From Aporhodopirellula rubra (lineage in GTDB: Bacteria; Planctomycetota; Planctomycetia; Pirellulales; Pirellulaceae): a DNA stretch of 64,000 nucleotides. Positions 1,670-23,024 of this stretch are shown here, piece by piece (position 1 is the first letter of the stretch; each line of letters begins with the position of its first letter). The stretch lies in the NCBI RefSeq assembly GCF_014192335.1, contig NZ_JACHXU010000015.1, positions 167,156 to 231,155 on the forward strand. Direction: 5' to 3'. Made by a program: the position numbers and the translations under genes. Below the pieces are notes generated by a model, which did not search any database, was not told where the DNA came from, and saw nothing but the letters and a program-made list of their open reading frames with translations.

Positions 1670-1756
1670 ACTCATCCTGAACATCATTTCCTTGCTGTAA
1701 TTCAGAATTTCAGTGACGCCCGTCGCGTTCAATACTTCCACGATTCGTTAAGAGTT

Positions 1757-3709: not shown

Positions 3710-3823
3710 CCGTTCAGAATCCAACGATTGCAACTTACTCTTCGTAAACGCAGCGAATCTTCGAAATCAATGAATCCCTGGCATGATCTGCCGACACCGT
3801 CCTACGAAAGAATGTCACATCAA

Positions 3824-5539: not shown

Positions 5540-5645
5540 CCTGACAGGCTGTTCCTTCCACCAGAACCACGCAGACATTCATGTAGGTCAGTCTCTGCAA
5601 GACTGCCACCATGACAATCGCATCCTTCTCCTCCGAATTTCGGAG
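5538..5645. repeat. Three small palindromes between the sulfatase genes
   Basis: Three perfect inverted repeats lie in the gap: AGCCTG-A-CAGGCT (5538-5550, overlapping the upstream stop codon), CAGTCT-CTGCA-AGACTG (5589-5605), and CTCCGAA-T-TTCGGAG (5631-5645). None is followed by a T tract, so they are not typical intrinsic terminators. They resemble short REP-like palindromes and could stabilise mRNA ends. Confidence 0.5.
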
Positions 5646-5722
5646 AGACGCGGCTACGTGGTTAGCACCTTTTCGACAGACTCCTTTTGAAATCCGCGAA
5701 GACGCTCTCAGGAATCATGCTG

Positions 5723-7354
5723 ATGAAGATCATCCCCAAACTGTGCCTGTTGCTGCTCTTTATCTCCGCAACCAGCCAAGCTGCTGATCGTCCAAATGTT
5801 CTGTTTCTGGCCATCGATGACTTACGACCAGAACTCGGTTGCTACGGTTCTGAGATCGCGATCACTCCCAACCTCGACAAGTTGGCATTGCAAGGTTTGT
5901 TATTCAACCGCGCCTATTGCCAGCAGGCGATCTGCAGCCCTTCCCGCGCGAGTCTGATGACCGGAGCACGGCCGGACACGATCGGCGTGGTCGAAAACTA
6001 CGCGTACTTCCGGGATCTCAATCCGGACATCGTAACCCTCCCGCAACACTTCATCGCAAACGGATACGAAGCCGTTTACGCCGGAAAAATCTTTCACAAC
6101 GATCCGACTGCCGATCGCGGAACGTCATGGAGTCGCCAACCGACGAGACCAAAGGTCAAACGAATCCAAACGGCAGGCGGTTACGCACTGCCTGAAAACC
6201 AAGCGATCTGGCGTAAGAACAAAGAAATCCTTGACGCGAAATACGGCAGAGCGATCGCCGGCAACGGGCTGATCCACGGCCCCGCCTACGAAGCGGCTGA
6301 TGTTCCTGACAACACCTATGAAGACGGTTACAACACCGACTCCGCGATCGCCACGCTGAAAGAGTTAGTCGCCGACAACGCCAAGCCATTTTTCCTCGGC
6401 CTTGGAATGAAGAAACCGCACCTCGAATTCATTGCACCCAAACGATACTGGGACCTCTACGACCCCAACGACATCCCACTTGCTGCACACACCGCGCCAC
6501 CGAAGAACGGAGCGGCCATGGGCCTGCATCCTTCGTTCGAACTACGCGTTCGCGACGGTATCCCCAAGAGCGGCCCGATTGACCCACAGATGTCTCGCAC
6601 ACTCAAGCACGCGTATCTGGCATGCGTCAGCTACGTCGACGCTCAGCTCGGCCGAATGATTGCCGCTCTGGAGGATGCGGGCGTCCGCGACAACACGATC
6701 ATCATCGTCTGGGGAGACCATGGCTGGCACCTCGGTGACATGGGAATCTGGGGCAAAGCGACCAATTACGAAATTGCAACACGCGTTCCATTGATGATCT
6801 GGACTCCCGATATGCCCGAGGCCGTTCGCGGATCCAAGACCGATGCGTTGGTAGAGCTGGTCGACATGTACCCTACCTTTTGCGAATTGGCTGGCATCGC
6901 TCAACCCGATCACTTGGAAGGACAAAGCTTCCTACCGCTCTTGCAAGCTCCTCATCGATCATGGAAGTCAGCCGTGTTTAGCCAATTCCCCAACCCCGCA
7001 CTCCGCGAATGGGCGGCAAATCCGTTGTCGGCCGGGATGCGTGAAACGTTCTTTGGCCCACTGATTCAAGAGGTCGAAGGCCGCATCATTCGTCAACAAG
7101 GCGACAAGTGGGATCGAGACTTATTCGAGAAGCATTTGATGGGTTATACGATGCGGACGGATCGCTATCGGCTCGTGGTGTGGCAAGACTACCGTGACGC
7201 GTCGGCAGATCCGGTCGACGTCGAATTGTACGATCACCAACTGGATCCGTCAGAAACGATCAACGTCGCAGACGCTCAGCCCGAACTCGTTGCCGAATTA
7301 TTGGCTCAGTTTAAGGCAGGATGGAAGGCACAATTGGCTACGACCAGTAACTAG
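5723..7354 (+). CDS. Secreted sulfatase (iduronate-2-sulfatase-like)
   Basis: Second formylglycine sulfatase. CSPSRASLMTG carries the modified Cys (Cys71 from the start used). The opening PNVLFLAIDDLRPELGCYGS is the iduronate-2-sulfatase-like variant of the metal site, and WGDHGWHLGDMGIWGK supplies the later metal and active-site residues. An AGGA at 5710-5713 is 9 bases from the ATG at 5723 and only 3 from the ATG at 5717, so 5723 is preferred; a signal peptide (MKIIPKLCLLLLFISATSQA) then starts at residue 1. The frame is open upstream from a TTG at 5687. Relatives include desulfation enzymes for uronate-rich polysaccharides, but the substrate cannot be read from sequence. It is last in the carbohydrate block and faces gatC tail to tail. 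Confidence 0.92.
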   Translation: MKIIPKLCLLLLFISATSQAADRPNVLFLAIDDLRPELGCYGSEIAITPNLDKLALQGLLFNRAYCQQAICSPSRASLMTGARPDTIGVVENYAYFRDLNPDIVTLPQHFIANGYEAVYAGKIFHNDPTADRGTSWSRQPTRPKVKRIQTAGGYALPENQAIWRKNKEILDAKYGRAIAGNGLIHGPAYEAADVPDNTYEDGYNTDSAIATLKELVADNAKPFFLGLGMKKPHLEFIAPKRYWDLYDPNDIPLAAHTAPPKNGAAMGLHPSFELRVRDGIPKSGPIDPQMSRTLKHAYLACVSYVDAQLGRMIAALEDAGVRDNTIIIVWGDHGWHLGDMGIWGKATNYEIATRVPLMIWTPDMPEAVRGSKTDALVELVDMYPTFCELAGIAQPDHLEGQSFLPLLQAPHRSWKSAVFSQFPNPALREWAANPLSAGMRETFFGPLIQEVEGRIIRQQGDKWDRDLFEKHLMGYTMRTDRYRLVVWQDYRDASADPVDVELYDHQLDPSETINVADAQPELVAELLAQFKAGWKAQLATTSN

Positions 7355-7529
7355 CAGCGAAATCCTCACACGCCGGCTCTCGAACCCAACCCAGACGTGT
7401 TCAACACGACAAGATGCAAAAGAAACGTCCGTCTCGAGAGCATTTCAAAGAAGGACTTGCCCGAACACAGAACCTGGATTCGTCAGAATTCAGTCGCCCG
7501 AAAGTAAGGCGACATCATTCCAGGAAATT

Positions 7530-7838
7530 CTAGCTGTCTTTGCCTGTTGCGGCGGCGCCGAGAACAGGTGGGACTAAAAAGAAGCCGTCCTGAGAAGCAG
7601 GAGCGGAAGCAGTCGCGACTTCGGGAGTAAAACTCTCACCGGGGACGTCATCGCGAAACCGGTTTTGGACATCCAGCGCACTGGTCATCGGCTCGACACC
7701 CTCGGTATCGAGCTGAGAGAGTTGTTCGACGAACGTCAAAATCTCGCCCACTTGGCGGCCGAAACTCTCTCTCTCCTGTTCGGTGAGATCGAGTTTGGCC
7801 AATCGAGCGAGTTTATCGATATCGACGTTGCCTGACAC
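7530..7838 (-). CDS. gatC: Asp-tRNA(Asn)/Glu-tRNA(Gln) amidotransferase subunit C
   Basis: 102-residue small subunit of the GatCAB complex that amidates mischarged Glu-tRNA(Gln) or Asp-tRNA(Asn); it stabilises GatA. The N-terminal helix IDKLARLAKLDLTEQE and the middle stretch TEGVEPMTSALD are typical of the family. The start is GTG, and its first G is the last base of the rpmB stop codon (TAGTG), so translation is probably coupled to rpmB. gatA and gatB are not in the window. Confidence 0.93.
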   Translation of the reverse strand: MSGNVDIDKLARLAKLDLTEQERESFGRQVGEILTFVEQLSQLDTEGVEPMTSALDVQNRFRDDVPGESFTPEVATASAPASQDGFFLVPPVLGAAATGKDS

Positions 7839-8107
7839 TATTTCTTCGCGCCGCTGACGTCAAAAGGCTTGGTCTTGACCGTTTTGCGAACGACACCGCT
7901 GCGGATGCACTGCACGCAAACTCGAACGGTCTTGTTTTCGCCACTGGGCAGGGTGACGTGAACACGTTGCAGGTTCGGGACAAATTTACGGCGAGTACAA
8001 CCGGTGATTTTGGTACCGACACCACCGAGATATTTCGCTTTCCCGCGTGTTTCGACCCGATTGCCCACCTGTACTTTTTTGCCGCACGCTTCGCATTGTC
8101 GTGCCAT
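7838..8107 (-). CDS. rpmB: 50S ribosomal protein L28
   Basis: 89-residue L28. MARQCEACGKKVQVGN is the conserved start, with a CxxC pair, and a second CVQC pair lies in the C-terminal part, so this looks like a zinc-binding form. The basic stretch TRRKFVPNLQRVHV is typical. The reading frame is open further upstream, but the ATG at 8107 follows a GGAG ribosome-binding site and matches the family start. It is first of a two-gene unit with gatC. Confidence 0.95.
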   Translation of the reverse strand: MARQCEACGKKVQVGNRVETRGKAKYLGGVGTKITGCTRRKFVPNLQRVHVTLPSGENKTVRVCVQCIRSGVVRKTVKTKPFDVSGAKK

Positions 8108-8798
8108 CGAATTCTCCGCCGCCGTAAATAAATGTGATGTGATCGTGAAAAGCACCGGGCGAACAGACGCACCGGGGCAAGTTTTTTTGTTTGGAAGCCC
8201 GGTAGAATAGCGACTTTCGGCTTTGAAGGAAAGCAGGATTCGCTTTCGGATGATATCCCCGGCTGGCGCGGCCTCATGGTCGGTGGGATCGACGGGAATA
8301 TTCCACCAAGGGGAGCTAAAACACCCCAGGTGTGGAGCGCCGCATGATAGGCGTTCCAATTACCTGCAAATGGCCTTTAGGTACACAGGACCGCCGCAAA
8401 TCCCGTTCTCTGTACGGCCTATCTGCCAAACCACCACTGACCGTCAAAGTCAACGCAGCTTTTGTGACCGTTGTCTTGTGGATGTTAGGAACACGATTTG
8501 GCCGATCGTTTCGTTTTACAGCAGCTAGACCGTGGGATTTCGCCTCAGGACACCGATGAAGTTTGCGACGACCCGGTGTGGAACCGGAAACAGCCTTTTA
8601 GTCTCAAACACGATCGCCAGTGGCGGCAGGCGCAGTGGGAGAGTCCGGCAGGTCCGAAAAAATGCTTTTTCGGCTGCGGAGGTTCGAAACGTAATGCACT
8701 CACGTGAGTGTGTCGCTTCGATCGTCTGGCCACACCGACATTTACCTTGGTGCCACAAAAATCGACCCAATTGGATTGGGACAAACACGGAGAAAGCA
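8108..8798. promoter_or_regulatory. 691-bp divergent intergenic region with three inverted repeats before the porin gene
   Basis: Separates rpmB (-) from the porin gene (+). No convincing gene is seen. The porin-proximal part holds three perfect inverted repeats: CCGAAAAA-ATGC-TTTTTCGG (8654-8673), the 14-bp palindrome CACTCACGTGAGTG (8697-8710), and CCCAAT-TGG-ATTGGG (8766-8780). The last ends 8 bases before the GGAGA ribosome-binding site at 8789-8793. This could be a regulated promoter or leader for the porin; no -35/-10 pair was clear enough to call. Confidence 0.45.
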
Positions 8799-10142
8799 AT
8801 GAAGCTTAGTAAATTAGCCCTGATCGCAGCCGTTGCATGCGGAATCAACGCACACAACCTGACCACTGCGACTGCAAACGATATCAACATGGTTTCCTTC
8901 TGCGAAACCAGCTGCGACTGCGGCGAGCCAGTATGCGGGTGCGAACCAGTATGCTGCGATCCAGGTTGCGACGACGGCTCGTGCTGCGAACCAGAATGCG
9001 GCTGCGAAATCGCATGCTGCGACGACACCTCCTGCTGCGATGGCGGATGTGACAGCGGTTGTGCTGCCACTAGCTGCCTCGATGACCTCGCAGGCGGTTG
9101 CCTCGACGACCCATGCTCGCTCTTCGGCGACATCGGACACGGAATCACCGTCGGTGGATGGGCCAGCATCGGCTATCACAGCAAAGCAGTGCCTTTGTTC
9201 AACAGCCGTGCAGATGAAGTTCAACTCCACCAAGCATGGTTGTACGCAGAGAAAGCCATCGACACCTCGAACGGTTTCGACATCGGTGGTCGCCTCGACT
9301 ACATCTATGGTACCGACGGACCTGACACTCAGTCGTTCGGTATCAACAACGACCACTGGGACAACGGCTGGGACAACGGTGGTGACTACGGTCACGCCCT
9401 TCCTCAAGCCTACGTCGAAGCCGGTTACGGAGACCTGTCGGTCAAACTCGGACACTTCTACACCATCATCGGATGGGAAGTTGTTGGAGCTCCTGACAAC
9501 TTCTTCTACAGCCACGCTTACACGATGTACAACAGCGAGCCCTTCACCCACACCGGTGCATTGGCAACCTACAACGCATCGGACGATCTGTCGGTCTACG
9601 GCGGATGGGTCACTGGCTGGGACAGCGGCTTCGAAAACAACGGCGACGCGTTCCTCGGTGGTGCGTCGATGGGTCTGTGTGACGGTTTGACGATGACCTA
9701 CGCAACCGTCTTCGGTCGCTTCGGCGAAGACAAGACTGGTGGCGGAGACTCCGAACGCGGCTACATGCACTCGATCGTGTTCGACTATGCCGTCAGCGAC
9801 AACTTGGAATACATCTTCCAAAGCGACTACCTCGACACCGAAGACGCCGCTGGTGCAACCTCACGCAGCACGTTCGGCATCAACCAGTACCTCCTTTACA
9901 CCCTCAGCGACAAATTGGCGCTGGGCGGACGTTTCGAATGGTACGACGCCAACGAAGGCATCTACAACTCCGACAACGACATCTACGCATTGACGACTGG
10001 CTTGAACATCAAGCCTCACTCGAACGTCATCATGCGTCCTGAAATCCGCTGGGATTGGGTCGATGGCGACTCCACCGGAATTCTGGAAGATGACGCCGAC
10101 GATCAGTTCACCTTCGGATTCGACACGATCTTCTTGTTCTAA
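8799..10142 (+). CDS. Outer-membrane beta-barrel porin with Cys-rich N-terminal domain
   Basis: 447-residue exported protein. A signal peptide (MKLSKLALIAAVACGINA) is followed by about 60 residues packed with Cys, Gly, Asp and Glu, including many CC and CxC patterns (for example CDCGEPVCGCEPVCC). From about residue 115 the protein becomes a repetitive beta-strand pattern rich in Gly, Tyr, Trp and Asp (HGITVGGWASIGYHSK, EAGYGDLSVKLGHFYTIIGWE) and ends in FGFDTIFLF with a terminal Phe, as outer-membrane barrels do. It resembles the planctomycete putative beta-barrel porin-2 family (BBP2). The ATG at 8799 is chosen because it has GGAGA six bases upstream and starts the signal peptide; the frame is open upstream to 8532. 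Likely general diffusion porin. The Cys head could form disulfides or bind metal at the cell surface (inference). A strong terminator follows, so it is probably monocistronic. Confidence 0.85.
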   Translation: MKLSKLALIAAVACGINAHNLTTATANDINMVSFCETSCDCGEPVCGCEPVCCDPGCDDGSCCEPECGCEIACCDDTSCCDGGCDSGCAATSCLDDLAGGCLDDPCSLFGDIGHGITVGGWASIGYHSKAVPLFNSRADEVQLHQAWLYAEKAIDTSNGFDIGGRLDYIYGTDGPDTQSFGINNDHWDNGWDNGGDYGHALPQAYVEAGYGDLSVKLGHFYTIIGWEVVGAPDNFFYSHAYTMYNSEPFTHTGALATYNASDDLSVYGGWVTGWDSGFENNGDAFLGGASMGLCDGLTMTYATVFGRFGEDKTGGGDSERGYMHSIVFDYAVSDNLEYIFQSDYLDTEDAAGATSRSTFGINQYLLYTLSDKLALGGRFEWYDANEGIYNSDNDIYALTTGLNIKPHSNVIMRPEIRWDWVDGDSTGILEDDADDQFTFGFDTIFLF

Positions 10143-10614: not shown

Positions 10615-13600
10615 TTGGTCGCACCGGATAGCCCCCTCAATAAACAATGGCTCGTGGACTACGAAACTGGAATCCAATCGTCGACTCAAGTGTCCGGAAT
10701 ATGGACGCGTGGTGGTCCTCCACCGACGGAATCGTCGACGCTGATTCATTTCTGCCGATTTCACGCGTGCGGTAAATCCGCCGATTCGCCTGCGTTCACG
10801 CATGTCCTGGGCGAACCCGGCGACCACGACCGATTGAGTTTCGCTCAACTGGATGAACGTGCCCGCGCGATCGCGTCTGAAATTCAGGCTCGAGGCGGAG
10901 TGGGAAAGCCCGTCCTGATCGTACTGGACCCAGGGTCCGACTATGCCGCGTCGTTGTTCGCATGCATGTACGCCCGCGCGATCGCCGTGCCGATCTACCC
11001 TCCACAAATGCTGCGGCTGCAACACACGCTGCCACGCCTCAAAGCGGTCATCGAAAATACCGGCGCCAAATTGATGTTGAGCGACCGAGCCACGATCGGC
11101 GAATCGCTCAGCAGCCTTTGGCAAATGCCCGAAAGCGGCGCAATCGCGGTCGATGAAATCTCACCAGAGGCCGCTTCCCTGTGGGATGGACGATTACCCG
11201 AACCCGATGATGTCGCAGTATTGCAATACACCTCGGGATCGACGGGAAACCCTCGCGGCGTCGTCCTGACGCATCGAATCCTGCTCAGCAATCTGCATGC
11301 GATTGTCGAGCACATTCACTTTGAGGGTGCCCGCAGCGTCCAGTGGGTGCCCCCCTATCACGATATGGGACTGATCGGCGGCATCTTGTTGCCGATTTAT
11401 CGCGGTGTCGAAACCGTGATCATCTCGCCGACCGATTTCGTCCGCAGCCCGTTACTGTGGCTTCGCTGCATCGACTACTACAACGGTTCGAGTAACGGCG
11501 CTCCTAATTTCGGGTACGAACTCTGCGTTCGACGAATCGACCACTCCGAGTGCGAAGGTCTCGATCTGAGTTCATGGAAGGTTGCCGTTGCCGGGGCCGA
11601 ACCCGTGCGTGCGTCGACTCTCCGTCGTTTCGAAGAAAAGTTTGCACGATACGGATTCGATTCGACCACGTTCAGCCCCGCGTTTGGAATGGCTGAAACT
11701 ACCGTGATGATGACGGGTTCACCGTTGGGCGAACGCTACAAAACGTTTGATGTCGATGCGCAGGCGTTGCGTTTGGGTCACGTCATTACAAACCCAGTCT
11801 CCGCCGATCGCACCAGCCAATCCAAACCGTTCACTCAGGAACTCGTCAGCTCGGGAATCCCGGTCGAAGGGATGGAATACGAGATCGTCGATCCCGAAAC
11901 CTACCACGCTCTGCCCGACGGCCAAATCGGAGAAATATGGGCTCGAGGTGGTTCGGTTGCCGCAGGTTACTGGAACGACGCAGAGGCAACCGAAAGAACC
12001 TTTCACGCTAAACTCGCATCGACCACGCATTGCCACGGCAAACCCTCCGCCGTCGGCCAAACTCGTTACCTCCGAACCGGAGATCTCGCCGCTCGAGTTG
12101 ACGGACAACTCATCGTCACCGGCCGGCTCAAAGAACTGATCATTGTCGCGGGAAGAAACTTCTACCCGCACGACATCGAACAGATCGTCCAATCGACCAG
12201 TGAAGCGTTCAAGCCTGACACGGGCACTGCGATCGGTATCGATATCGACGACAGCGAAGAAATGGTGGTCATCCAGGAACTGTGGAGGCCGCGAAAGTTC
12301 TCTCCCGAAGAGCTCCTCAAGAACGTTGTCGCGGCAATCGCTGAAAAGGCGCAAGTCACCCCACATGCAATCGTCTTGGTCCGCAGCGGCTCGTTACCCA
12401 AAACCTCCAGCGGCAAGCTTCAACGCACCGATACGAAGGAGATGTTCCTTAAAGGGGAACTGACTGAGATCGCACGATGGCAAGCGGGCAACACGGCAAC
12501 CTCAACACCCAAACCGTTTGAGGCACCCGCGACCGAATCCGAAAAAACGATCGCATCGATTTGGTCCTCAATCCTTGGAGTAGAGTCCGTCAGCGGCAAC
12601 GATGACTTCTTCCATCTCGGTGGAAGCTCGCTGCTGATCGCACAAATGCTGACCGAAGTCGGCGAACGCTACTCCGTTTCGATCCCGATGACAGCGATCT
12701 TCCGCAACCCGACTCTCAAAGAGTTCGCTGCTGTTGTTGACGCCGAAGAGGACCGTGACCGCTCGGCACTCGAAATCAGTCGCACGAACACGGCGCCCGA
12801 CGAACCGCACTCGCTCTCGTCTGCCCAACAACGTTTCTGGTTGCTCGATCAACTCGGCCAGACCAACGCGTTCGTCCATGTCCCGGTCACCATCCATCTC
12901 GAGCAAGCGATCGACCGCGACCGCCTCGCCGAGGCGTGCCACCGTGTGATCAGTAAACACGCGATGCTGAGAATGCGGTTCGTTGACTCGGATCAAGAAC
13001 CAACCCAATTCATCGGCGAATCGAACAGTATCGAGATTCACGACTTGAATGTGATGTGCTCCAACGCATCCGATCTGAAATCATTCGACGAAGCGTTGGA
13101 TCGTTTCATTCGTGAGCCGATGGATCTGACTCAAGCACCTCTGATGCGTGTCGCGTTGTCCCAATGTCCGGATGGCCGAAGCCGCATCGACCTCGTGCTG
13201 CACCATCTTGTTTGTGACGCGAGCAGTCTGCAAACACTGATCAGTGATCTAGCCCGTTCGTTTGACACGACCACCGAATCAGTAGCCTGCGAGACCGACG
13301 ATACGGCTCTTCGTTACGTGGATTTTGCGGAATGGGATCGCGGTTCAGCGCATCGCGAATTGATGCAAACGCGAGTCGCCTACTGGCAACAACGACTCGC
13401 CGCGATGCCCCCGGAGTTGAATCTCCCGCGTGCAGAAACACGTCACAGCGATGAACGATCAACAACCGCGTCACCCGCATCAACCAAAGTCGCCGCATCG
13501 GTCGCCGCCAAAATCGAACAGATTGCGATTGAACGCGGACTGACGCCGTCGATGGTCTATCTCACTGCGTTTCAATCAGTGCTCGCTCGATATGGCGGAA

Positions 13601-15954
13601 GCAACGATTTTGGGATTACGATCCCAACATCCAATCGTCCGTCTTCACGTCTCAACGAGATTGTCGGATGCTTCGTCAATCCGATCATCTATCGTGCCCA
13701 GGTCGACCAGAACGAGTCTGTAGCGAACGCACTGGAGCAAACTCGCGAACACCTGTTGTCCGATCTCGAGCACGCTGACGTGCCGTTTCAAGACGTTGTC
13801 TCGGCTATCGATCAAGTCCGCGACATATCGCGGATGCCGCTGTCGCAGGTGATGTTCCTCTATCAACCGCCTTTTGATTCGATCGAACGTTTGGGTGACG
13901 CTGCCGTTGCCTCGGTTCGTCCCGGCTACTCCGCGGTGACCGCTTATGATGTGTCGCTAGTCGTTCATCCAGGCGACGAAACCGAAATGTCGATGGTTGC
14001 CGGAGAGAACGTATCGACGGACCTCGTGCAACGGATGCTCACTTCACTCAACGAAGTTCTCGAACAGATCACCGACGCTTCGCTCGCCAAACAATCGATT
14101 GCCGGCCTAACAATTCCTTCGAGCACCGAACGTGATTTGATCGAGGCTGCCTCGCACGCAAAGGCACTCACCGAGGCGACGACGGACAATCTGATCCAGC
14201 GACTCCGCTCGCACGCTGAACGCACTCCCGATCGCATCGCCATCAGCGACGATCACGCCTCGTTCAGCTATCGAGAGATTGATCGTAAAAGCGACCACAT
14301 CGCAATGGCGTTGATCGCGGACGGCCTAGAGACCGGATCCCTCGTCGGCGTTGGAATGTCTCGCAGTGCGGACGCCATCACCGCGATTCTTGGGATTTGG
14401 AAAGCGGGTGCCGGATACGTGCCGGTGGATCCTTCGCTGCCGATCCATCGACGTGAACAAATCAAATCAGGCGCCGATCTTACCTTCATCATTGACGACA
14501 CAACCTTCGAACGACTCGCGAAATCGTCACTTAAACCATCAACGTCGATCAGCGAACGGCAGCCCGCCCCGAGCGATCTCGCATACGTGATGTTCACATC
14601 CGGTTCGACGGGCACGCCCAAAGGGGTCGCGATCGAACACGGCAGCGTCGCAAACCTACTCGCCTCGTTCGCGGATGAACCGGGATTCACATCGGCAGAT
14701 TCGATGTTGGCGGTGACGACAATGTCATTCGACATCTCGGTCCTTGAGATGTTCCTTCCGATCTGGTGCGGCGGGAAGGTCGATATCACTGCAAACCGAA
14801 TCGGCGAAGATCCCGAATCGGTCATTCGCACGATCACAACGACTCGACCTTCGGTCATTCAGTCGACGCCTTCCGCATTTCGGATGCTGATGTCGGCCGG
14901 TTGGCGTCCCGATCCGATGACACGATTGTTGTGTGGCGGCGAACCGTTAATGCCCGATCTGGCTTTCGATTTGCTCTCGACGGGTTGCGAGCTTTGGAAC
15001 GTCTACGGACCGACCGAAACGACCGTTTGGTCAACAATTACTCGTATCGAGTCCCCCGACGAAATCAGCATCGGGCGTCCGATCGCGGGCACAACCTGCC
15101 GCGTCGTTGACCGCGACGGAAACGTAGTTCCGATCGGGGTTGCGGGTGAACTGCAAATTGGCGGACTCGGGGTCGCTCGTGGTTACTTCGGGGATGCAGA
15201 GCAAACGCGTTCCCGATTCATCAGTATCGACGAGGAACGTTTTTACCAAACTGGCGACCAAGTCCGACGTTCACTCAACGGTAACCTAGAGTTTCTCGCG
15301 AGGAATGATCGACAGGTCAAACTCCGTGGGTTCCGGGTTGAGCTAGACGAAATCGAATCCGCACTTCAGCGGTGCCATGGGATCGATCGAGCTGCCGTGG
15401 TGCTCTGTTGTAACGATTCTACCGGTGGTGATCGACTGATCGCGTTTTGCTCGGGCTCGAGCGATGACGCGGCCGTACGTTCCGAACTGGCAGATCGACT
15501 ACCTGACTACATGATCCCGGCGACGATCCAGTGGCTCGATGAGTTACCGCAAACGCCCGCCGGGAAAACGGACTACCGATCACTCCCAACGAATTCGATC
15601 GAACCACTCGAATCCCAAACATCTCCACCCCAGACGCCATTGGAATCCGCCTTGGCCGAAGTGTGGTGCGAAGTCCTCGAATGCGAAGCGATTGGTCGCG
15701 ATGACCACTTTTTCGACCTCGGTGGGAACTCATTGATGGCGGCACAGTTGTTCGCACGGCTTCGCCAGCGGTTGGACATTAACTTACCACTTCGAGAAAT
15801 TTACACACGACCGACAATTGCGATGATGGCCAGCGCTATCGTCATGCATCAAGCAGAAACGGACGCTGATGACCTATCGGACATGCTCGCAACGATTGAC
15901 TCACTTTCGGATGACGAGGTGATGCGGGCACTCGACGGCAATAACCAATCCTGA
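10615..15954 (+). CDS. Lipopeptide synthetase 1: FAAL-ACP-C-A-PCP
   Basis: 1779-residue hybrid initiation module. Order: fatty acyl-AMP ligase (about 45-600; YTSGSTGNPRG, PPYHDMGLIGGILLP, and the late IIVAGRNFYPHDIE typical of FAALs); acyl carrier (FFHLGGSSLL, phosphopantetheine Ser672); condensation domain (about 725-1155) with HHLVCDA at His863-His864, where Ala replaces the usual Gly of HHxxxDG; adenylation domain (about 1185-1660; FTSGSTGTPKG, NVYGPTETT, YQTGD); and peptidyl carrier (FFDLGGNSL, Ser1706). It should activate a fatty acid as acyl-adenylate, load it on the ACP and condense it with an amino acid. My manual specificity code, DILQLGVVWK, is close to the glycine signature DILQLGLIWK that I recall. 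The start is uncertain: TTG at 10615 follows an in-frame stop, with GTG at 10654 or 10690 as alternatives. The flavoprotein gene starts 21 bases after the stop. Confidence 0.93.
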   Translation: MVAPDSPLNKQWLVDYETGIQSSTQVSGIWTRGGPPPTESSTLIHFCRFHACGKSADSPAFTHVLGEPGDHDRLSFAQLDERARAIASEIQARGGVGKPVLIVLDPGSDYAASLFACMYARAIAVPIYPPQMLRLQHTLPRLKAVIENTGAKLMLSDRATIGESLSSLWQMPESGAIAVDEISPEAASLWDGRLPEPDDVAVLQYTSGSTGNPRGVVLTHRILLSNLHAIVEHIHFEGARSVQWVPPYHDMGLIGGILLPIYRGVETVIISPTDFVRSPLLWLRCIDYYNGSSNGAPNFGYELCVRRIDHSECEGLDLSSWKVAVAGAEPVRASTLRRFEEKFARYGFDSTTFSPAFGMAETTVMMTGSPLGERYKTFDVDAQALRLGHVITNPVSADRTSQSKPFTQELVSSGIPVEGMEYEIVDPETYHALPDGQIGEIWARGGSVAAGYWNDAEATERTFHAKLASTTHCHGKPSAVGQTRYLRTGDLAARVDGQLIVTGRLKELIIVAGRNFYPHDIEQIVQSTSEAFKPDTGTAIGIDIDDSEEMVVIQELWRPRKFSPEELLKNVVAAIAEKAQVTPHAIVLVRSGSLPKTSSGKLQRTDTKEMFLKGELTEIARWQAGNTATSTPKPFEAPATESEKTIASIWSSILGVESVSGNDDFFHLGGSSLLIAQMLTEVGERYSVSIPMTAIFRNPTLKEFAAVVDAEEDRDRSALEISRTNTAPDEPHSLSSAQQRFWLLDQLGQTNAFVHVPVTIHLEQAIDRDRLAEACHRVISKHAMLRMRFVDSDQEPTQFIGESNSIEIHDLNVMCSNASDLKSFDEALDRFIREPMDLTQAPLMRVALSQCPDGRSRIDLVLHHLVCDASSLQTLISDLARSFDTTTESVACETDDTALRYVDFAEWDRGSAHRELMQTRVAYWQQRLAAMPPELNLPRAETRHSDERSTTASPASTKVAASVAAKIEQIAIERGLTPSMVYLTAFQSVLARYGGSNDFGITIPTSNRPSSRLNEIVGCFVNPIIYRAQVDQNESVANALEQTREHLLSDLEHADVPFQDVVSAIDQVRDISRMPLSQVMFLYQPPFDSIERLGDAAVASVRPGYSAVTAYDVSLVVHPGDETEMSMVAGENVSTDLVQRMLTSLNEVLEQITDASLAKQSIAGLTIPSSTERDLIEAASHAKALTEATTDNLIQRLRSHAERTPDRIAISDDHASFSYREIDRKSDHIAMALIADGLETGSLVGVGMSRSADAITAILGIWKAGAGYVPVDPSLPIHRREQIKSGADLTFIIDDTTFERLAKSSLKPSTSISERQPAPSDLAYVMFTSGSTGTPKGVAIEHGSVANLLASFADEPGFTSADSMLAVTTMSFDISVLEMFLPIWCGGKVDITANRIGEDPESVIRTITTTRPSVIQSTPSAFRMLMSAGWRPDPMTRLLCGGEPLMPDLAFDLLSTGCELWNVYGPTETTVWSTITRIESPDEISIGRPIAGTTCRVVDRDGNVVPIGVAGELQIGGLGVARGYFGDAEQTRSRFISIDEERFYQTGDQVRRSLNGNLEFLARNDRQVKLRGFRVELDEIESALQRCHGIDRAAVVLCCNDSTGGDRLIAFCSGSSDDAAVRSELADRLPDYMIPATIQWLDELPQTPAGKTDYRSLPTNSIEPLESQTSPPQTPLESALAEVWCEVLECEAIGRDDHFFDLGGNSLMAAQLFARLRQRLDINLPLREIYTRPTIAMMASAIVMHQAETDADDLSDMLATIDSLSDDEVMRALDGNNQS

Positions 15955-15975
15955 TTCTTAAACTCGACCTGTGTC

Positions 15976-17733
15976 ATGATCACGCCTTGTAAAGAACGCG
16001 AAATCGACTTCCTCATCATCGGCGCCGGACCGGCCGGGGTGCAGTTGGGCTATTTCATGAAGCGTGCCGGATACGATCATTTGATACTCGAGGCTCATGA
16101 TCGACCGGGCACCTTTCTGGAAAAGTACCCGCGTCACGGCAAACTGTTATCAATCAACAAGATCCACACCGGCTACAGCGACCGCGAGTCACAACTCCGC
16201 TACGACTGGAATTCGCTGTTATGCGACGATGACGAGATGGCATTCGGAAAATACTCCAAAGAGTATTTCCCCAGCACGGAAGACTACGCCCGCTACACTC
16301 GAGACTTCGTTGAACGATTCGATCTCGACATTCAATTCAACACCCGCGTCGAGTCGGTCGAAAAGAAGGACAACGGAGCGGAAGGATATGTCGTTCGCGA
16401 CAATCACGGCACCGTGTATCACGTGCGATGTCTTGTCGTTGCCGTCGGCGTGCAGAAGCCGTACATCCCCGAAATTCCCGGCATCGAACTGACCGAAAAC
16501 TACGCGGAAATGTCGATCGATCCCGACGACTTCGCGGGCCAACGGGTGCTGATTTTGGGCAAAGGCAACTCGGCGTTCGAAACCGCAAACCATCTCATTT
16601 CGGCGACCCGTGTCACTCACTTGTGTAGTCCCAGTCCGATCAAGATGGCCTGGCAAACTCACTTTTTCGGGCACCTCCGCGCCGTTAACAATGACTTCCT
16701 CGACACCTATATCCTCAAGGGTCAGAACTCCGTCCTCGACGCTACCGTGGACAGCATCAAGAAAGTGGACGGAGAGTATCACGTCGAGATCACGTTCACT
16801 CACGCTGAAGGCCAACGCGCTTCGTTAGCCTATGACCGCGTGCTGTGCTGCACCGGATTCAGTTGGGATCCAACCTTCTTTTCCGACAACTGCCGCCCAG
16901 ACATGGCATGCGAAGATCGTTTGCCCGCAATGACGAGCGGATGGGAATCAACCAACTTGCCCGGCGTTTTCTACGCCGGAACGATCACGCAGATCCGTGA
17001 CCTCAAGAAAACCATGTCGAGCGTACTGCACGGATTTCGATTCAACACCGCCGCATTGTTCAACCTGCTGGCCGAACGTTACATGGATGTCCCTTGGCCG
17101 GCGGATTCGTTCGAGTCCACGCCAGAAAACATCGCCGACAAGATTACCGCTCAAGTCAGCTCCGCCGCCGGATTGATGCATCAACCCGGTTTCCTCGGCG
17201 ATTGCCTCGTCGTTGACGACGAAACCGGCACTGCGAACTATCACGCCAATCTCGCCGTCGATTACATCCAAGACAGTCATTTCGCTGACAACCCACATTA
17301 CTACATCATCACGATGGAATATGGCGAGTTTGAAGGCGACATCTTTAACAAACACCGCATTCCTGATGCTGCAAAGGGCTACGACGATGCCTACCTGCAT
17401 CCACGCATACGGCGAATGTGTCGTGGACAACTGATTTCGGAACATCACATTTCGGAGTCTCTCGAAAACGATTGGCGTGTAAACGAACATCCCGGCGAAC
17501 GTCCTCTGATTCGAGCGATTGACTTCATCGGCCAAACCGACGCGACTCGCTATCAGCAAACGCACCGCGATCAATTGCTTCGCTTTCTCAGCGAACAGCT
17601 CGCCGTCGGATCACCGTCAGAATCAGAGATGCCTGCTATCGTCTGCCCCTCTTCCTCCTCAAACGCTTCGGCCAGTCTCCCATCGGCCATACATTCGACA
17701 GGAAACTCATGTCCGATCTCGAGAAACGGCTAG
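15976..17733 (+). CDS. FAD-dependent oxidoreductase, FOXRED2-like, in the lipopeptide locus
   Basis: 585-residue two-dinucleotide-binding flavoprotein. FLIIGAGPAGVQLGYF (about residues 12-27) is the FAD-binding Rossmann motif; VLILGKGNSAFETANHL (about 190-206) is the NAD(P)H-binding motif. The block NKIHTGYSDRESQLRYDWNSLL (given in part: NKIHTGY and RYDWNSLL) recalls eukaryotic FOXRED2 and related flavin monooxygenase-like proteins. In this setting it could hydroxylate, dehydrogenate or otherwise oxidise the acyl-peptide on its carrier or after release; the chemistry is not deducible. The last 25 bases overlap the next synthetase's start (17709), so the two are translationally coupled. The final 45 residues are Ser-rich and look like a linker forced by that overlap. 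Confidence 0.85.
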   Translation: MITPCKEREIDFLIIGAGPAGVQLGYFMKRAGYDHLILEAHDRPGTFLEKYPRHGKLLSINKIHTGYSDRESQLRYDWNSLLCDDDEMAFGKYSKEYFPSTEDYARYTRDFVERFDLDIQFNTRVESVEKKDNGAEGYVVRDNHGTVYHVRCLVVAVGVQKPYIPEIPGIELTENYAEMSIDPDDFAGQRVLILGKGNSAFETANHLISATRVTHLCSPSPIKMAWQTHFFGHLRAVNNDFLDTYILKGQNSVLDATVDSIKKVDGEYHVEITFTHAEGQRASLAYDRVLCCTGFSWDPTFFSDNCRPDMACEDRLPAMTSGWESTNLPGVFYAGTITQIRDLKKTMSSVLHGFRFNTAALFNLLAERYMDVPWPADSFESTPENIADKITAQVSSAAGLMHQPGFLGDCLVVDDETGTANYHANLAVDYIQDSHFADNPHYYIITMEYGEFEGDIFNKHRIPDAAKGYDDAYLHPRIRRMCRGQLISEHHISESLENDWRVNEHPGERPLIRAIDFIGQTDATRYQQTHRDQLLRFLSEQLAVGSPSESEMPAIVCPSSSSNASASLPSAIHSTGNSCPISRNG

Positions 17734-20700
17734 CCTCTCTTTCGCCCGCCAAACGCGCGCTCTTAGAAAGAATGTTGCTGGAACGTGCGGAGACTCGAGG
17801 CTCGAAGATTCCCGTTCGTCCTTCCGATTGCGATGATGATCTCTCGGGTGCCGAACGACGTTTATGGTTTGTCGATCAGATCGCAAAAGACGATCCGTTC
17901 TACAACATGCCGCTCGCTGCGCGGTTGCATGGCCCCTTGGATCGTGAATCACTCGATGTCGCGGTCGAACAACTGGTCCACCGACATGAATCACTCCGAA
18001 CGACTTATCATCTCGTCGACGGAGAACCTCGCCGCACGATTCACGAATCACAACCGATTCATTGTGCATGGATCGACGTTTCAGCGAGCCGAGACGTAGA
18101 GTCAGACCTGCGCCGCCGAATGCGTGTCGCGAGCCGAGCACCGTTCGATCTAGAAAACGGACCTCTGCTGCGGATCACGGTCTACCGCATTAGCGATAAC
18201 GAACACGTGATCTTGCTGGTGATGCATCACATCATCTCCGACGGTTGGTCCATGATTGTCATGTTGCGAGAACTCACGCTCGCATACGAAATGAATCGAT
18301 CCCGAGACTCATCGCTCAATGGGGATTCAAACGCGTTGCCACCACTGCCAATCCAGTACGCTGATTTCGCGCATTGGCAGAACGAACAGATGTCCGATCA
18401 ACGCGTCGAGAAACAAATGGAGTATTGGCGGCGATCACTCGAGAACGCGCCCGCCGTACTCGACCTGCCCACCGATCGTCCTCGACCCGCGATCCAGGAC
18501 TTCATTGGTGCGACAGTCGAAATGGAATTGCCCGCAGATCTAACGTCCGCCATCAATCGACTCGCGTCGACATTGCATACGACGCCGTTCGCCGTATTGA
18601 TGGCCGCCGAAGCGATCTTGCTGGGCCGGTTTTCACGACAAAACGACCTCGTACTCGGCACCGCCTCCGCCGGACGCGTCCACCCCGAGATCGAACCGCT
18701 GATCGGTTTCTTCGTTAATACACTCGCTTTACGAGTTCGGTTAGAAGACAACTTGACGTTCGAAGATCTCGTCCGCCAGGTACACCAAACCACGACGGAA
18801 GCCCACGAACACGCGGACGTCCCGTTTGAGCGATTGGTCGAAGAGCTCGCGCCAACGCGTGACCGCAGTTTCTCGCCGATCTTCCAATCCGCCCTCGTTA
18901 TGCAAAACTTGCCTCGCGACATCAGTGAAAAAGGCAGCATCCAAGTCGATCCGATCCTTGTCGACAACGGCACCGCCAAATATGACCTGACGTTTTTCCT
19001 ATGGGAAGAATCGGAAAGGCTGATCGGCCATATCGAGTATCGTTCAACGCTGTTCAATCGAGACACAATCGAACGACTGATCGACTCTTATCGTACGCTG
19101 CTTACTGCCGCTACCAACGATCCTCAATTACTGATTGATCGGTTGCCGATTCTTTCAGCCGAGCAAAGGTCACAAGTCGTTGACAATTTCAACCAAACAT
19201 CTGTCACGAATCCGGCACCGTTTTTGTTGCACGAACTGGTTGAAGAAAACGCGACGCGAACACCCAACAAAACCGCCGTGGTGCACGGCGACAGCGAAGT
19301 CAGCTACCACGAATTAATCCAGCGAGCCGAAGGCATCGCCGCCAACCTGATCGACGCAGGTATCGACCGCGAATCCGCGGTTGTCATCAAACTTCCTCGT
19401 TCCATCGATCTCATCGCGACCATACTCGGCGTCCTCAAAGCAGGTGGATCCTTCGTTCCGGTCGACCCGGAATTTCCTGACGCCCGCATCGAACGTATCG
19501 TATCGGACACCGGTGCAAAGATCATGGTTGATCCACAATGGATCGCGAACCACCAAACCTCTCCCGCCGACATCTCGTTTCCGACCGTCGCCCCACACGA
19601 TCGCGCCTACGTGATCTTCACATCGGGATCGACTGGAACCGCCAAAGGCGTTGAAATCGAACATCGAGGGATCGTCAATTTTGTGCGGGCTCAGATCGAT
19701 CGCATGCAAGTCTCGGCCGAGGACCGATTCAGCTTCAGTTTCTCACCCTCGTTCGATGGAGCCATCTCCGAAATCTTCTACGCTTTGGGCAGCGGTGGAA
19801 CGAGCGTCGTTGTTGACAAACCAACACTCCTTGTCCCCGAGGAACTGACGCACCTCCTCAACAAACATCACGTTACGGTCGGAAAATTCCCGCCCGCACT
19901 GTTGTCCACGCTCGATCCGTCGACGCTACCAAATTTACGCACAGTGGCTTCGGCAGGCGACAAACTGACCGGCGAACTCGCTCGAAGATGGCTTACCGGA
20001 GAGCGCCGGATGTTCAACGGATATGGGCCCACCGAAGTTTCAGTCGGCTGCAGCATGATGCTGCTCAACAACGAATGGACCGGCGACAAGCCACCCATCG
20101 GACCGCCAATGAACAACATGCGAATGTACGTTCTTGACGAGCACCGCGAACCATTGCCGATCGGCGCCGCAGGCGAAATCTACGTCGGAGGAAAAGGCGT
20201 AGGCCGGGGCTACCTCGGACAGCCCGAGTTGTCCGATTCGGTCTTCTTACCTGACCCATTCGCACCCCAAGACACAACTTCAGACGCTGCTGCTCCACGG
20301 ATGTATCGCACCGGTGACCTCGGACGATGGCTCGCCAACGGTGTGGTTGAGTTCGTCGGCCGTGTCGATGATCAAGTCAGCCTCCGCGGATTTCGTATCG
20401 AACCCGGTGAAATCGCCGCAACGCTGGAAACACTTGGCGGCGTCCGACAAGCCACAGTGATCGAGCGTACCGAAAACGAAACATCACAACTCGTTGCCTA
20501 CGTGGTTCCCCAAAACGAAAACGAGACTACGGCACTTTCATCACATCTCGAATCCAACCACGTTACACAGTGGCGAAACCTTTTCGAACAAACCCATCGG
20601 ATTGCTCCCCCTGTCCTGGATCCCTCGTTCAACATCACAGGATGGATCAGCACTTACACCGGAAAGCCGATTCCGAGCGAAGAAATGCGTCAATGGACCG

Positions 20701-23024
20701 ACGGTGCAGTCCAACGAATCCTTGATTTGCAACCTCGAAACGTCTTGGAGATCGGCTGCGGGACGGGACTGTTGCTGCTGCGAATCGCCGAACATTGCGA
20801 TCGATACGTTGGATCGGATCTACTCGTATCGTCATTGCAAAACATCGAAAGCGAATTGCAACGACGTCCCGAATTAAAGAACATCGTGTCTCTCGCTCAG
20901 GCCGACGCTGACCAATTCGATCACCTCGGTGATGAGATGTTTGATTGCATCGTGCTGAACTCCGTCGTGCAATACTTCCCCGGTGTCGACTACCTGCTTC
21001 GCGTGCTCGAAGGAGCGATTGCCCACCTTGCGCCAGGCGGTTTGCTCTTTATCGGCGACGTACGCAATCTGAAGTTGCAATCGGCAATGGCAACCTCAGT
21101 GGAACTGGCGAATGCGGATACTGACTTGTCGATTGGCGAGTTGAAGCACCGTGTTGCCGCTCGGATCGAACACGAGGAAGAATTGCTGCTCGATCCCGCT
21201 TTGTTCGTGCATCTAAAATCCAGTCAACCGCGAATTACGAACATCCGGGTCTTGCTGAAAGACACTGCCGAGAACAACGAACTCGGGCGTTTTCGCTATG
21301 ATGTGGTGATCGACGTCGACGGTCAAACATCGCCTGGTCACTGCCGCGAAGTCGGGTACTCCGCCGATGAAGAACGAGACAAAGCCGATGACACGCCGGT
21401 TCGATACACCGGGATCACAAACGCTCGCGTTGCATTGGATTGTCATGCAACACGATTAGCCGATTCGATGGCGGATACTGACACGGTTGCCGATCTCAAC
21501 GATCAACTCGATTCGATCAAACCATCTCTCGCGATGCGAGACCCCAACGACTTCACACTGACTCGCCCCGGCGCAACCGTTGCCACATGGAACGACCAGG
21601 ACCCTAGCAAATTCGACATCATCGAATTCTGCGATTCCTCCACCGAGCCACAAGGCGCAAACATCCGAAACGTTTCAGTTGATAACCCGGCAGCCACCGA
21701 ACAAGTCCCGACCGACATCAGCCGTTTGGCCAATGACCCCATCGGCACCGAACGCGTTCGAGAATTCACGAAACAACTTCGCGATGAACTCACCGCTCGT
21801 CTGCCCGCTTACATGATCCCCTCCGCGTTCGTGGTACTCGACGAACTGCCACGCACCATCAACGGCAAAATCGATCGGTCGCGTCTGCCGCGTCCCGCCG
21901 GACGTCCTGCTTGGGCGGGAAATTTCGAAGCCCCCACCACACCCACGCAGAAAGCACTTGTCAAAATTTGGGAAGACCTGCTCGACACGCGTCCGATCGG
22001 CATCCAGGACGACTTTTTCGAACTCGGCGGCCACTCCATGTTAGCGGTTCGGATGACGAGTGATATCGAACGCGTATTAGGCAAACGCCTTCCGCTGGTC
22101 GCACTGTTTCAAAACGCGACCGTCGCACACCTTGCAGAGCGGATTGATGAAGGTGAATTGTCCACGATCGGCTCGACGCTCGTTCCACTGAAAACGGTTG
22201 AGCGGAGCAAAGAATCAGCGGACTCCCGTCCCCCACTGTTTTGCATCCATCCCGCCGGCGGAACCGTTTTCTGTTACATGGAAATGGCATCGCATTTGAG
22301 TGGTGGTCGCGCAGTCTACGGCATTCAAGCCAACGGCGTCGACGGAACCCAACCACCTCATGAAACGCTCGCCGAAATGGCGGCGCATTACGCCAGAGCA
22401 ATCCGCGAGATCCAACCCGAGGGCACAGTACACTTGGCCGGGTGGTCGCTCGGCGGAAACATCGCCTTCGAGGTTGCCCGCCAATTGCAATCGCGGGGCA
22501 CTCGTGTCGGAGTCGTGGCGTTGTTAGATTCCGGATTGCTCTCCCCGGACACGCAACTCCGTGAAGAAGACTTCTTGCCTCTCCTGACTGCTTTGTTCCC
22601 AGGAGCCATGAATCTCGATCTAGAACAGATTCGACAAAAAAGTCCCGCCGATCAATTGCAGTTTTTCGTTGACCGAGCCTCTCAGGCAGGCATCGTTCCC
22701 GACGAACTCAACGACATTGTCGCGACCAAAGACACACCAAACGCGGCACACGTTTTCGGCGTGTTTCAATCCAACGTCAAAGCCGTGCACGAATACGTTG
22801 CCGAGCCTTTCGAAGGCGAGGTGCATCTATTTCGACCCGCCGACCAAGGAAAAACCAACTCTCTCTTCGACGACCCGGTGCTTGGATGGCGTGAAGTCAC
22901 CGAACATGTTCACGTCCTCGAAGTCCCGGGCGATCACGCCCATATGCTTCAGTCGCCCGCGGCCGAATCAATCGCGCAACAACTCGATGAACTGATGCAA
23001 AACTCGGGTGTCGTTCACGCGTAA
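17709..23024 (+). CDS. Lipopeptide synthetase 2: C-A-MT-PCP-TE (termination module)
   Basis: 1771 residues. A short N-terminal helix (MSDLEKRLASLSPAKRALLE) may dock to the upstream PCP. Condensation domain with intact HHIISDG (His173-His174). Adenylation domain with FTSGSTGTAKG, NGYGPTE and YRTGD. A methyltransferase is inserted between motifs A8 (VSLRGFRIEPGE) and A9 (LPAYMIPSAFV), the canonical N-methyltransferase site, with SAM motif VLEIGCGTGLLL near residue 1013 and an upstream GWISTYTGKPIP stretch as in cyanobacterial A-MT domains. Then peptidyl carrier (FFELGGHSML, Ser1443) and type I thioesterase (GWSLGG, Ser1580; late His in GDHAHML). It should add and N-methylate a second residue and release the product. 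Manual code DGSKAAGVGK matches no signature I know; Lys at the fourth position and the VGK end recall Asp/Asn codes. AGGAA precedes the ATG. It ends 16 bp from nadD on the opposite strand. Confidence 0.93.
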   Translation: MSDLEKRLASLSPAKRALLERMLLERAETRGSKIPVRPSDCDDDLSGAERRLWFVDQIAKDDPFYNMPLAARLHGPLDRESLDVAVEQLVHRHESLRTTYHLVDGEPRRTIHESQPIHCAWIDVSASRDVESDLRRRMRVASRAPFDLENGPLLRITVYRISDNEHVILLVMHHIISDGWSMIVMLRELTLAYEMNRSRDSSLNGDSNALPPLPIQYADFAHWQNEQMSDQRVEKQMEYWRRSLENAPAVLDLPTDRPRPAIQDFIGATVEMELPADLTSAINRLASTLHTTPFAVLMAAEAILLGRFSRQNDLVLGTASAGRVHPEIEPLIGFFVNTLALRVRLEDNLTFEDLVRQVHQTTTEAHEHADVPFERLVEELAPTRDRSFSPIFQSALVMQNLPRDISEKGSIQVDPILVDNGTAKYDLTFFLWEESERLIGHIEYRSTLFNRDTIERLIDSYRTLLTAATNDPQLLIDRLPILSAEQRSQVVDNFNQTSVTNPAPFLLHELVEENATRTPNKTAVVHGDSEVSYHELIQRAEGIAANLIDAGIDRESAVVIKLPRSIDLIATILGVLKAGGSFVPVDPEFPDARIERIVSDTGAKIMVDPQWIANHQTSPADISFPTVAPHDRAYVIFTSGSTGTAKGVEIEHRGIVNFVRAQIDRMQVSAEDRFSFSFSPSFDGAISEIFYALGSGGTSVVVDKPTLLVPEELTHLLNKHHVTVGKFPPALLSTLDPSTLPNLRTVASAGDKLTGELARRWLTGERRMFNGYGPTEVSVGCSMMLLNNEWTGDKPPIGPPMNNMRMYVLDEHREPLPIGAAGEIYVGGKGVGRGYLGQPELSDSVFLPDPFAPQDTTSDAAAPRMYRTGDLGRWLANGVVEFVGRVDDQVSLRGFRIEPGEIAATLETLGGVRQATVIERTENETSQLVAYVVPQNENETTALSSHLESNHVTQWRNLFEQTHRIAPPVLDPSFNITGWISTYTGKPIPSEEMRQWTDGAVQRILDLQPRNVLEIGCGTGLLLLRIAEHCDRYVGSDLLVSSLQNIESELQRRPELKNIVSLAQADADQFDHLGDEMFDCIVLNSVVQYFPGVDYLLRVLEGAIAHLAPGGLLFIGDVRNLKLQSAMATSVELANADTDLSIGELKHRVAARIEHEEELLLDPALFVHLKSSQPRITNIRVLLKDTAENNELGRFRYDVVIDVDGQTSPGHCREVGYSADEERDKADDTPVRYTGITNARVALDCHATRLADSMADTDTVADLNDQLDSIKPSLAMRDPNDFTLTRPGATVATWNDQDPSKFDIIEFCDSSTEPQGANIRNVSVDNPAATEQVPTDISRLANDPIGTERVREFTKQLRDELTARLPAYMIPSAFVVLDELPRTINGKIDRSRLPRPAGRPAWAGNFEAPTTPTQKALVKIWEDLLDTRPIGIQDDFFELGGHSMLAVRMTSDIERVLGKRLPLVALFQNATVAHLAERIDEGELSTIGSTLVPLKTVERSKESADSRPPLFCIHPAGGTVFCYMEMASHLSGGRAVYGIQANGVDGTQPPHETLAEMAAHYARAIREIQPEGTVHLAGWSLGGNIAFEVARQLQSRGTRVGVVALLDSGLLSPDTQLREEDFLPLLTALFPGAMNLDLEQIRQKSPADQLQFFVDRASQAGIVPDELNDIVATKDTPNAAHVFGVFQSNVKAVHEYVAEPFEGEVHLFRPADQGKTNSLFDDPVLGWREVTEHVHVLEVPGDHAHMLQSPAAESIAQQLDELMQNSGVVHA

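Follow-up and report, generated by a model that had tools for sequence, protein, structure and literature searches.

A three-gene locus of Aporhodopirellula rubra predicted to form a FAAL-initiated lipodipeptide assembly line with an FMO-like flavoprotein

The locus

The window, i.e., the whole stretch of 64,000 nucleotides that was analysed (G000:C15:167156-231155), belongs to the genome of Aporhodopirellula rubra (8.55 Mb, 75 contigs, 99.98% complete). Positions 10615-23024 of the window hold a three-gene locus of the composition FAAL-ACP-C-A-PCP / flavoprotein / C-A(MT)-PCP-TE, which confirms an earlier observation. All three genes lie on the forward strand. The first (10615..15954) encodes synthetase 1, FAAL-ACP-C-A-PCP, of 1779 residues if read from TTG. 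The second (15976..17733, ATG start) encodes an FMO-like FAD/NAD(P) flavoprotein of 585 residues, with GxGxxG at residues 16-21 and GKGNSA at 195; the third (17709..23024, ATG start) encodes synthetase 2, C-A(MT)-PCP-TE, of 1771 residues. Both synthetases were delimited by their open reading frames and by Pfam and NCBIfam matches.

The preliminary description presented these genes as coupled, and the reading frames, the spacing of 21 nt between genes 1 and 2 and the overlap of 25 nt between genes 2 and 3 confirm this. The domain order that it gave is borne out by the Pfam and NCBIfam matches, and the residues that it cited (Ser672 and Ser1706 of protein 1; His173-174, Ser1443 and Ser1580 of protein 3) are all in place. 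All three frames of the window are open and the inspected motifs are intact. Besides the host, 14 genomes carry synthetase 1 with its motifs and 15 carry synthetase 2 (one of these copies partial); thus the locus is not a product of chance. Concerning the start of synthetase 1, GTG at 10654 appears more likely than TTG at 10615, because the close relatives L005 and L007 carry an in-frame stop directly upstream of the common CTC-GTG-GAC-TAC.

Domains of the synthetases

In synthetase 1, Pfam finds two AMP-binding stretches, one Condensation and two PP-binding domains. The N-terminal adenylating domain (10780..12474; Pfam, NCBIfam and PDB sequence matches) is matched by the NCBIfam FAAL models below their cut-offs. 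Its PDB sequence matches include proteins named as fatty-acyl-adenylate or fatty-acid--AMP ligases (3pbk, FadD32, FadD23); the top entries, 7r7g and 3kxw, carry other labels, and we take both to be FAALs. Since named FAALs are among these matches and Pfam finds a DIP2-like C-terminal domain, we consider the domain to be FAAL-like rather than a CoA ligase. It is followed by an ACP (12520..12750, ends approximate) with the motif LGGSS at Ser672, and by the condensation domain C1 (12811..14133) with HHLVCDA; both were assigned by Pfam and motif, as were the other condensation and carrier domains described here. The form HHxxxDA is found in 11 of 15 orthologues, and HHxxxDG in the four more distant ones (L037, L039, L119, L120). 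This change sits beside the catalytic histidines.

The adenylation domain A1 (14206..15585, Pfam) has the code DILQLGVVWK, where the ten pocket positions were read by motif, as they were for A2. The usual glycine code is DILQLGLIWK. The pattern DILQ[LFV]GV[VI]WK holds in all 15 full-length synthetase 1 sequences; a partial sixteenth (L062, from G502) reads DILQLGMVWK. The glycine specificity first proposed for A1 is therefore supported by a glycine-like code. PCP1 (15649..15840) has LGGNS at Ser1706, and the carrier serines of synthetase 1 are kept in 15/15.

Synthetase 2 matches the Pfam families Condensation, AMP-binding, methyltransferase, PP-binding and Thioesterase. Its condensation domain C2 (17841..19175) has HHIISDG at residue 173; HHxxxDG is present in all 15 readable sequences, and the motif is absent from the partial sequence L078. 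The main part of A2 (19242..20549, Pfam and motif reading) is separated from its remainder (21765..21869; AMP-binding_C with the equivalent of Lys517, Pfam) by a methyltransferase (20556..21758, ends approximate; Pfam and PDB match) with the SAM motif VLEIGCGTG. Pfam thus places the methyltransferase between the A2 core and AMP-binding_C, with a variable linker; the methyltransferase and the terminal thioesterase named in the preliminary description are both supported. The pattern E[IV]GCGTG is found in 16/16 synthetase 2 sequences, with Val for Ile in L037. The nearest solved relative of this region is 5wmm (labelled "NRPS", E 3.4e-46), which we take to be the interrupted A domain (A-M-A) of TioS. 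Judging by its insertion site in A2, the methyltransferase presumably acts on the amino nitrogen. PCP2 (21954..22145) has LGGHS at Ser1443, and the thioesterase (22230..22985, Pfam and motif) has GWSLGG at Ser1580 and GDHAHM near its end. Both serines are kept in 16/16 sequences.

The code of A2 is DGSKAAGVGK, and DGSK[ALS][AG]GVGK holds in 16/16 synthetase 2 sequences, one of them partial. We know of no exact match to it. Lysine at position 278 and a terminal VGK occur in codes for Asn and Asp, e.g., DLTKxGEVGK for Asn. The pocket of A2 appears wider (Gly236, Gly322), which suggests a larger polar residue; this reading of the code is a lead only.

The flavoprotein

Pfam assigns the flavoprotein to Pyr_redox_3 and also matches it to the Lys/Orn N-oxygenase family PF13434 (4.9e-12). 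Twenty-eight flavoproteins were aligned, of which 13 are of the trio type and the other 15 more distant; the alignment leaves out the split L005 copy, duplicates under G handles, two Nonomuraea places, G824, G882, the second G603 copy and the other places from the Streptomyces hoynatensis family. Two nucleotide-binding motifs (GxGxx[GA]) are both present in 28/28, as is the signature AW.[ST]H[FY].G.[LV]RA.NN. The FMO/BVMO fingerprint FxGxxxHxxx[FYW] is found in 0/28, and the loose form [FILV]xGxxxH occurs somewhere in 9/28; because the fingerprint is absent, we call the protein FMO-like and not a member of class B FMO/BVMO.

In the AlphaFold2 model (mean pLDDT 81, pTM 0.84), residues 221-238, which lie within the signature, fall below 50. 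The model is closest to 3d1c (a putative flavin monooxygenase), YpdA and FNR folds. With 1324 PDB matches at E <= 0.001, and with no TM score (by query length) above 0.48 in the best 50 of these 1324, the matches name a broad class only. A profile search places flavin monooxygenases and YpdA first, then 8odw, then phenylacetone monooxygenase, and in both the structure and the profile searches reductase-type relatives score like monooxygenases. The modelled protein is, then, of an FMO/reductase-type fold with two nucleotide-binding motifs. We presume that it resembles the FOXRED2 family.

A redox CxxC is found in one of the 28 sequences and an invariant cysteine in none of them; the best conserved is C306 (24/28), and C579 is present in 6/6 flavoproteins having that tail. 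Thiol-disulfide chemistry is unlikely for this reason, and a role as dithiol oxidase or thioredoxin reductase was judged unlikely on the CxxC count. Our literature search found no reaction of this flavoprotein family, no bacterial FOXRED2 homologue in the titles and abstract openings covered, no link of FOXRED2 to nonribosomal peptides, and no link of diatretol to a flavin enzyme.

Conservation of the three genes

The flavoprotein was sought in 60 relatives and by one contig scan (9 loci), as well as in genome draws that overlap one another. At E <= 1e-60, the family draw (199 genomes) has 18 genomes with a match, own included, five of them at only 44-49% identity; the phylum draw (391 other genomes) adds none. 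The order draw (396 genomes) has 12 with a flavoprotein match, own included. At an identity of at least 53% the flavoprotein is present in 16 genomes of two families, own included (G000, G001, G005, G007, G008, G010, G012, G018, G020, G059, G474, G491, G502, G519, G824, G882), and all 16 encode both synthetases; G059, G824 and G882 belong to another family than the other trio genomes.

The trio is contiguous in 12 of the 16 (own included), has an unlinked synthetase 2 in three and lies on broken contigs in one. In the three (G018, G491, G519), the flavoprotein adjoins synthetase 1, and a full-length synthetase 2 (55-56%, residues 1-1766) is encoded elsewhere. This rules out a monomodular pathway of flavoprotein and synthetase 1 alone in these genomes, which are close kin, so that the split is probably one event. 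In the fragmented genome G502, one short contig carries the A-PCP end of synthetase 1 together with a flavoprotein gene that is truncated where the contig ends; a partial synthetase 2 is found on a separate contig. In G020, synthetase 1 and the flavoprotein are separated by another ORF, which has up to 412 residues. In Rhodopirellula sallentina SM41 (L005:9779-11550) the flavoprotein gene reads as two overlapping ORFs, through a draft error or a recent break.

In the genus sample, all three genes are present in 7/13 genomes and none in 6/13 (limits of 1e-120 for synthetase 1 and 1e-150 for synthetase 2; flavoprotein matches in the six lacking genomes have E 1.5e-7 or weaker). Synthetases without the flavoprotein were sought in these 13 genomes and in three genomes of the family, of which the three have only module-level matches; therefore flavoprotein-free pairs of synthetases may occur elsewhere. 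In 12 genomes, pairwise distances were compared among the three proteins and correlate with r = 0.93, 0.95 and 0.99, as would also be expected from shared species history alone. The trio is inherited as a unit, which supports its reading as one assembly line.

More distant relatives of the flavoprotein have other surroundings. One adjoins a PKS KS-AT gene (L060:182-3858), one has an NRPS gene nearby, from which an aminotransferase separates it (L061:5897-14282), and others (L055-L059) adjoin unrelated genes or a protein that matches no Pfam family; in Nonomuraea, a relative has an AMP-ligase, a P450 and a Na/H exchanger as neighbours. L009 and L010 have two flavoprotein copies each, together with an aromatic amino acid lyase. 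In the family of Streptomyces hoynatensis, 35 of 200 genomes have a relative at E <= 1e-60. The 20 loci read there (L099-L118, out of 42 places; L104 is a 6-kb contig) have the flavoprotein followed by an FMN-dependent dehydrogenase in 20/20, with a P450 and a Na/H exchanger in 19/20 each; an AMP-ligase is near in 12/20, and an A-domain match occurs at the far edge in one (L112). No NRPS stands beside the flavoprotein relative in this operon type, and to our knowledge no product has been described for its conserved gene order.

We also considered whether FOXRED2-like proteins are general partners of NRPS. This is ruled out by the relatives of 40-49% identity, which are mostly found in other contexts (counted for relatives whose neighbours were read, with L038 left out). 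An apparent flavoprotein fusion in G603 (an ORF of 1864 residues) was set aside: its first ~1330 residues have no Pfam match at 1e-5, and it is probably a false frame in high-GC DNA. Thus, the subfamily of at least 53% identity accompanies the assembly line in every genome where it was found, whereas the family at large does not.

Neighbourhood and helper genes

Among the annotated proteins of the locus and its neighbours, no PPTase, MbtH protein or obvious exporter lies directly beside the trio, in agreement with the preliminary description. The conclusion drawn there, that the locus depends on genes elsewhere, is consistent with a PPTase, as two PF01648 proteins are encoded elsewhere in the host genome; it does not fit MbtH, which has no match in the host genome at E <= 0.001. 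Four condensation domains are found in the genome, two of them at the locus. The other two (G000:C34:15983-17332 and G000:C2:107148-108467) lie in other long frames.

Directly upstream of the trio is an outer-membrane porin-2 gene. The part of the window at 77-10142, on the same strand, contains a sugar transporter, a GH127 arabinofuranosidase, two sulfatases and this porin-2, and resembles a locus for the use of polysaccharides. In L005 and L007, too, a sulfatase and the porin precede the trio, and in the trio loci searched (~4-5 kb per side) the flanking genes of the window adjoin the trio in these two only. The 12 annotated window ORFs beside the trio include no gene for metal-siderophore uptake.

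Proposed pathway and alternative explanations

The observed domains and motifs, the conserved codes and the fact that the three proteins are inherited jointly make it probable, in our view, that the locus encodes a single dimodular assembly line for a lipopeptide, in which the flavoprotein acts as a tailoring enzyme in trans. In the presumed order of reactions, the FAAL would convert a fatty acid to acyl-AMP and load it onto the ACP; C1 would condense the fatty acyl group with glycine on PCP1; and C2 would transfer the acyl-Gly to the second amino acid, X, on PCP2. X is perhaps polar (Asn-, Asp- or Glu-like) and may be N-methylated by the methyltransferase embedded in A2. The thioesterase would release N-fatty-acyl-Gly-(N-methyl)X as an acid or a ring. 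The flavoprotein would be dedicated to this line, as an NAD(P)H/FAD oxygenase or oxidoreductase acting on the carrier-bound chain or on its glycine. Several observations count against this scheme: the HHxxxDA form of C1 in 11/15 orthologues, the A2 code without an exact known match, the missing fingerprint of the flavoprotein (0/28), its broad fold matches, the other contexts of the 40-49% relatives and the additional ORF in G020.

The target of the flavoprotein admits other readings. It is quite possible that the enzyme oxidises another site (the fatty chain, the alpha carbon of glycine or the side chain of X) or catalyses a Baeyer-Villiger-type reaction, considering that phenylacetone monooxygenase and flavin monooxygenases of unknown substrate are among its matches; the class B FMO/BVMO fingerprint, however, is absent in 28/28.

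It seems rather unlikely that the protein serves as a reductase or redox partner (YpdA- or FNR-like) or as a self-protection enzyme and takes no part in tailoring of the product. Bacillithiol reductase YpdA and FNR folds are indeed among the top structural and profile matches, but the cysteine pattern (none invariant, CxxC in 1/28) and the joint inheritance with the synthetases disagree with such a role.

A further, unlikely reading makes the flavoprotein an N-oxygenase of carrier-bound glycine, which would hydroxylate Gly-S-PCP1 before or after acylation; this would yield N-acyl-N-hydroxy-Gly-X, a fatty-acyl hydroxamate that might bind metals as an amphiphile. A profile built from the 28 flavoproteins finds 8odw_A (labelled "Polyketide synthase modules-related protein", E 2.8e-15), presumably the Ox-ACP didomain of LbmA from the lobatamide pathway. 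The Lys/Orn N-oxygenase match points in the same direction, and so does the position of the flavoprotein beside the Gly-module synthetase in the three split genomes, although these are close kin and probably represent one event. For necroxime, the passages available from the source propose a glycine primer that is modified by oxygenase, DH and MT domains (PMC7318616). The 8odw match and this proposal make oxidation of glycine a real possibility, and we go no further: the match spans the FAD/NADPH half common to many FMOs, 8odw ranks below six other matched sequences from FMOs and YpdA-type reductases, and the 12 annotated flanking ORFs show no uptake gene for a metal siderophore.

It would be of more general interest, and in our opinion is improbable, that the flavoprotein represents a new class of assembly-line oxygenases outside the FMO/BVMO fingerprint, oxidising carrier-bound glycine or acyl-glycine by N-hydroxylation or alpha-oxidation. 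If so, lipid hydroxamates or oxidised acyl-glycyl peptides would be produced in at least two planctomycete families, and the locus would give the first biochemical handle on the FOXRED2-like family. Finally, that the lipopeptide locus is a decaying cluster without function in the host strain is very improbable, since the frames of the window are all open and the inspected motifs intact, even if R. sallentina (L005) has its flavoprotein in two ORFs and the trio is missing from six genomes of the genus.

Comparison with known systems

Planctomycete genomes contain many biosynthetic loci with few known products. The locus considered here is small, complete and conserved (16 genomes of two families), and it comes with a definite structural prediction. 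Our literature search, with most subscription journals outside its scope, found no planctomycete product of this layout; in the available parts of the paper on alkylresorcinols FAAL is named only in the references, and the available passages of other planctomycete papers include none on FAAL. A cultured strain, Aporhodopirellula aestuarii ICT_H3.1 (L007), has the trio (its flavoprotein is 91% identical, its synthetases 76% and 81%). According to the accessible passages of the source, its extracts inhibit several Gram-positive bacteria and alter the growth of A. fumigatus, and no peak of the extracts analysed matched a known bioactive product, where the inclusion of ICT_H3.1 is not stated (PMC10805854). 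This activity is a place to test the prediction and not evidence for the function of the locus.

Acylated amino acids are known from planctomycetes as stieleriacine-type N-acyl tyrosines, which the passages available attribute to a route by the N-acyl amino acid synthase NasY (PMC12479983). No NasY-type gene set is found among the annotated proteins of the locus and its neighbours.

In 5wmm (E 3.4e-46) a methyltransferase is likewise inserted in an A domain, with an A code that we take to differ from that of A2. The human orphan flavoprotein FOXRED2/ERFAD presumably shares the overall layout and the long signature of the locus flavoprotein; the latter is bacterial and linked to NRPS. The oxygenase domains of the necroxime and lobatamide PKS, so far as the accessible part of the source describes them, similarly combine an FMO-type flavin enzyme with a glycine-loading carrier module (PMC7318616). 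Here, in contrast, the flavoprotein is free-standing and of another subfamily, the glycine is probably acylated, and there is no oxime-forming DH partner.

A parallel is also provided by the FAAL-initiated lipopeptide NRPS of the puwainaphycin and daptomycin type, where, in the passages available, a FAAL and an ACP likewise feed C-A-PCP. Compared with these descriptions, the present system has only two modules, a fused FAAL-ACP-C-A-PCP, a short lipodipeptide as its predicted product, a constant FMO-like partner gene and a planctomycete host. As far as the literature searches reached, the locus is an uncharacterised variant of the FAAL-initiated lipopeptide NRPS.
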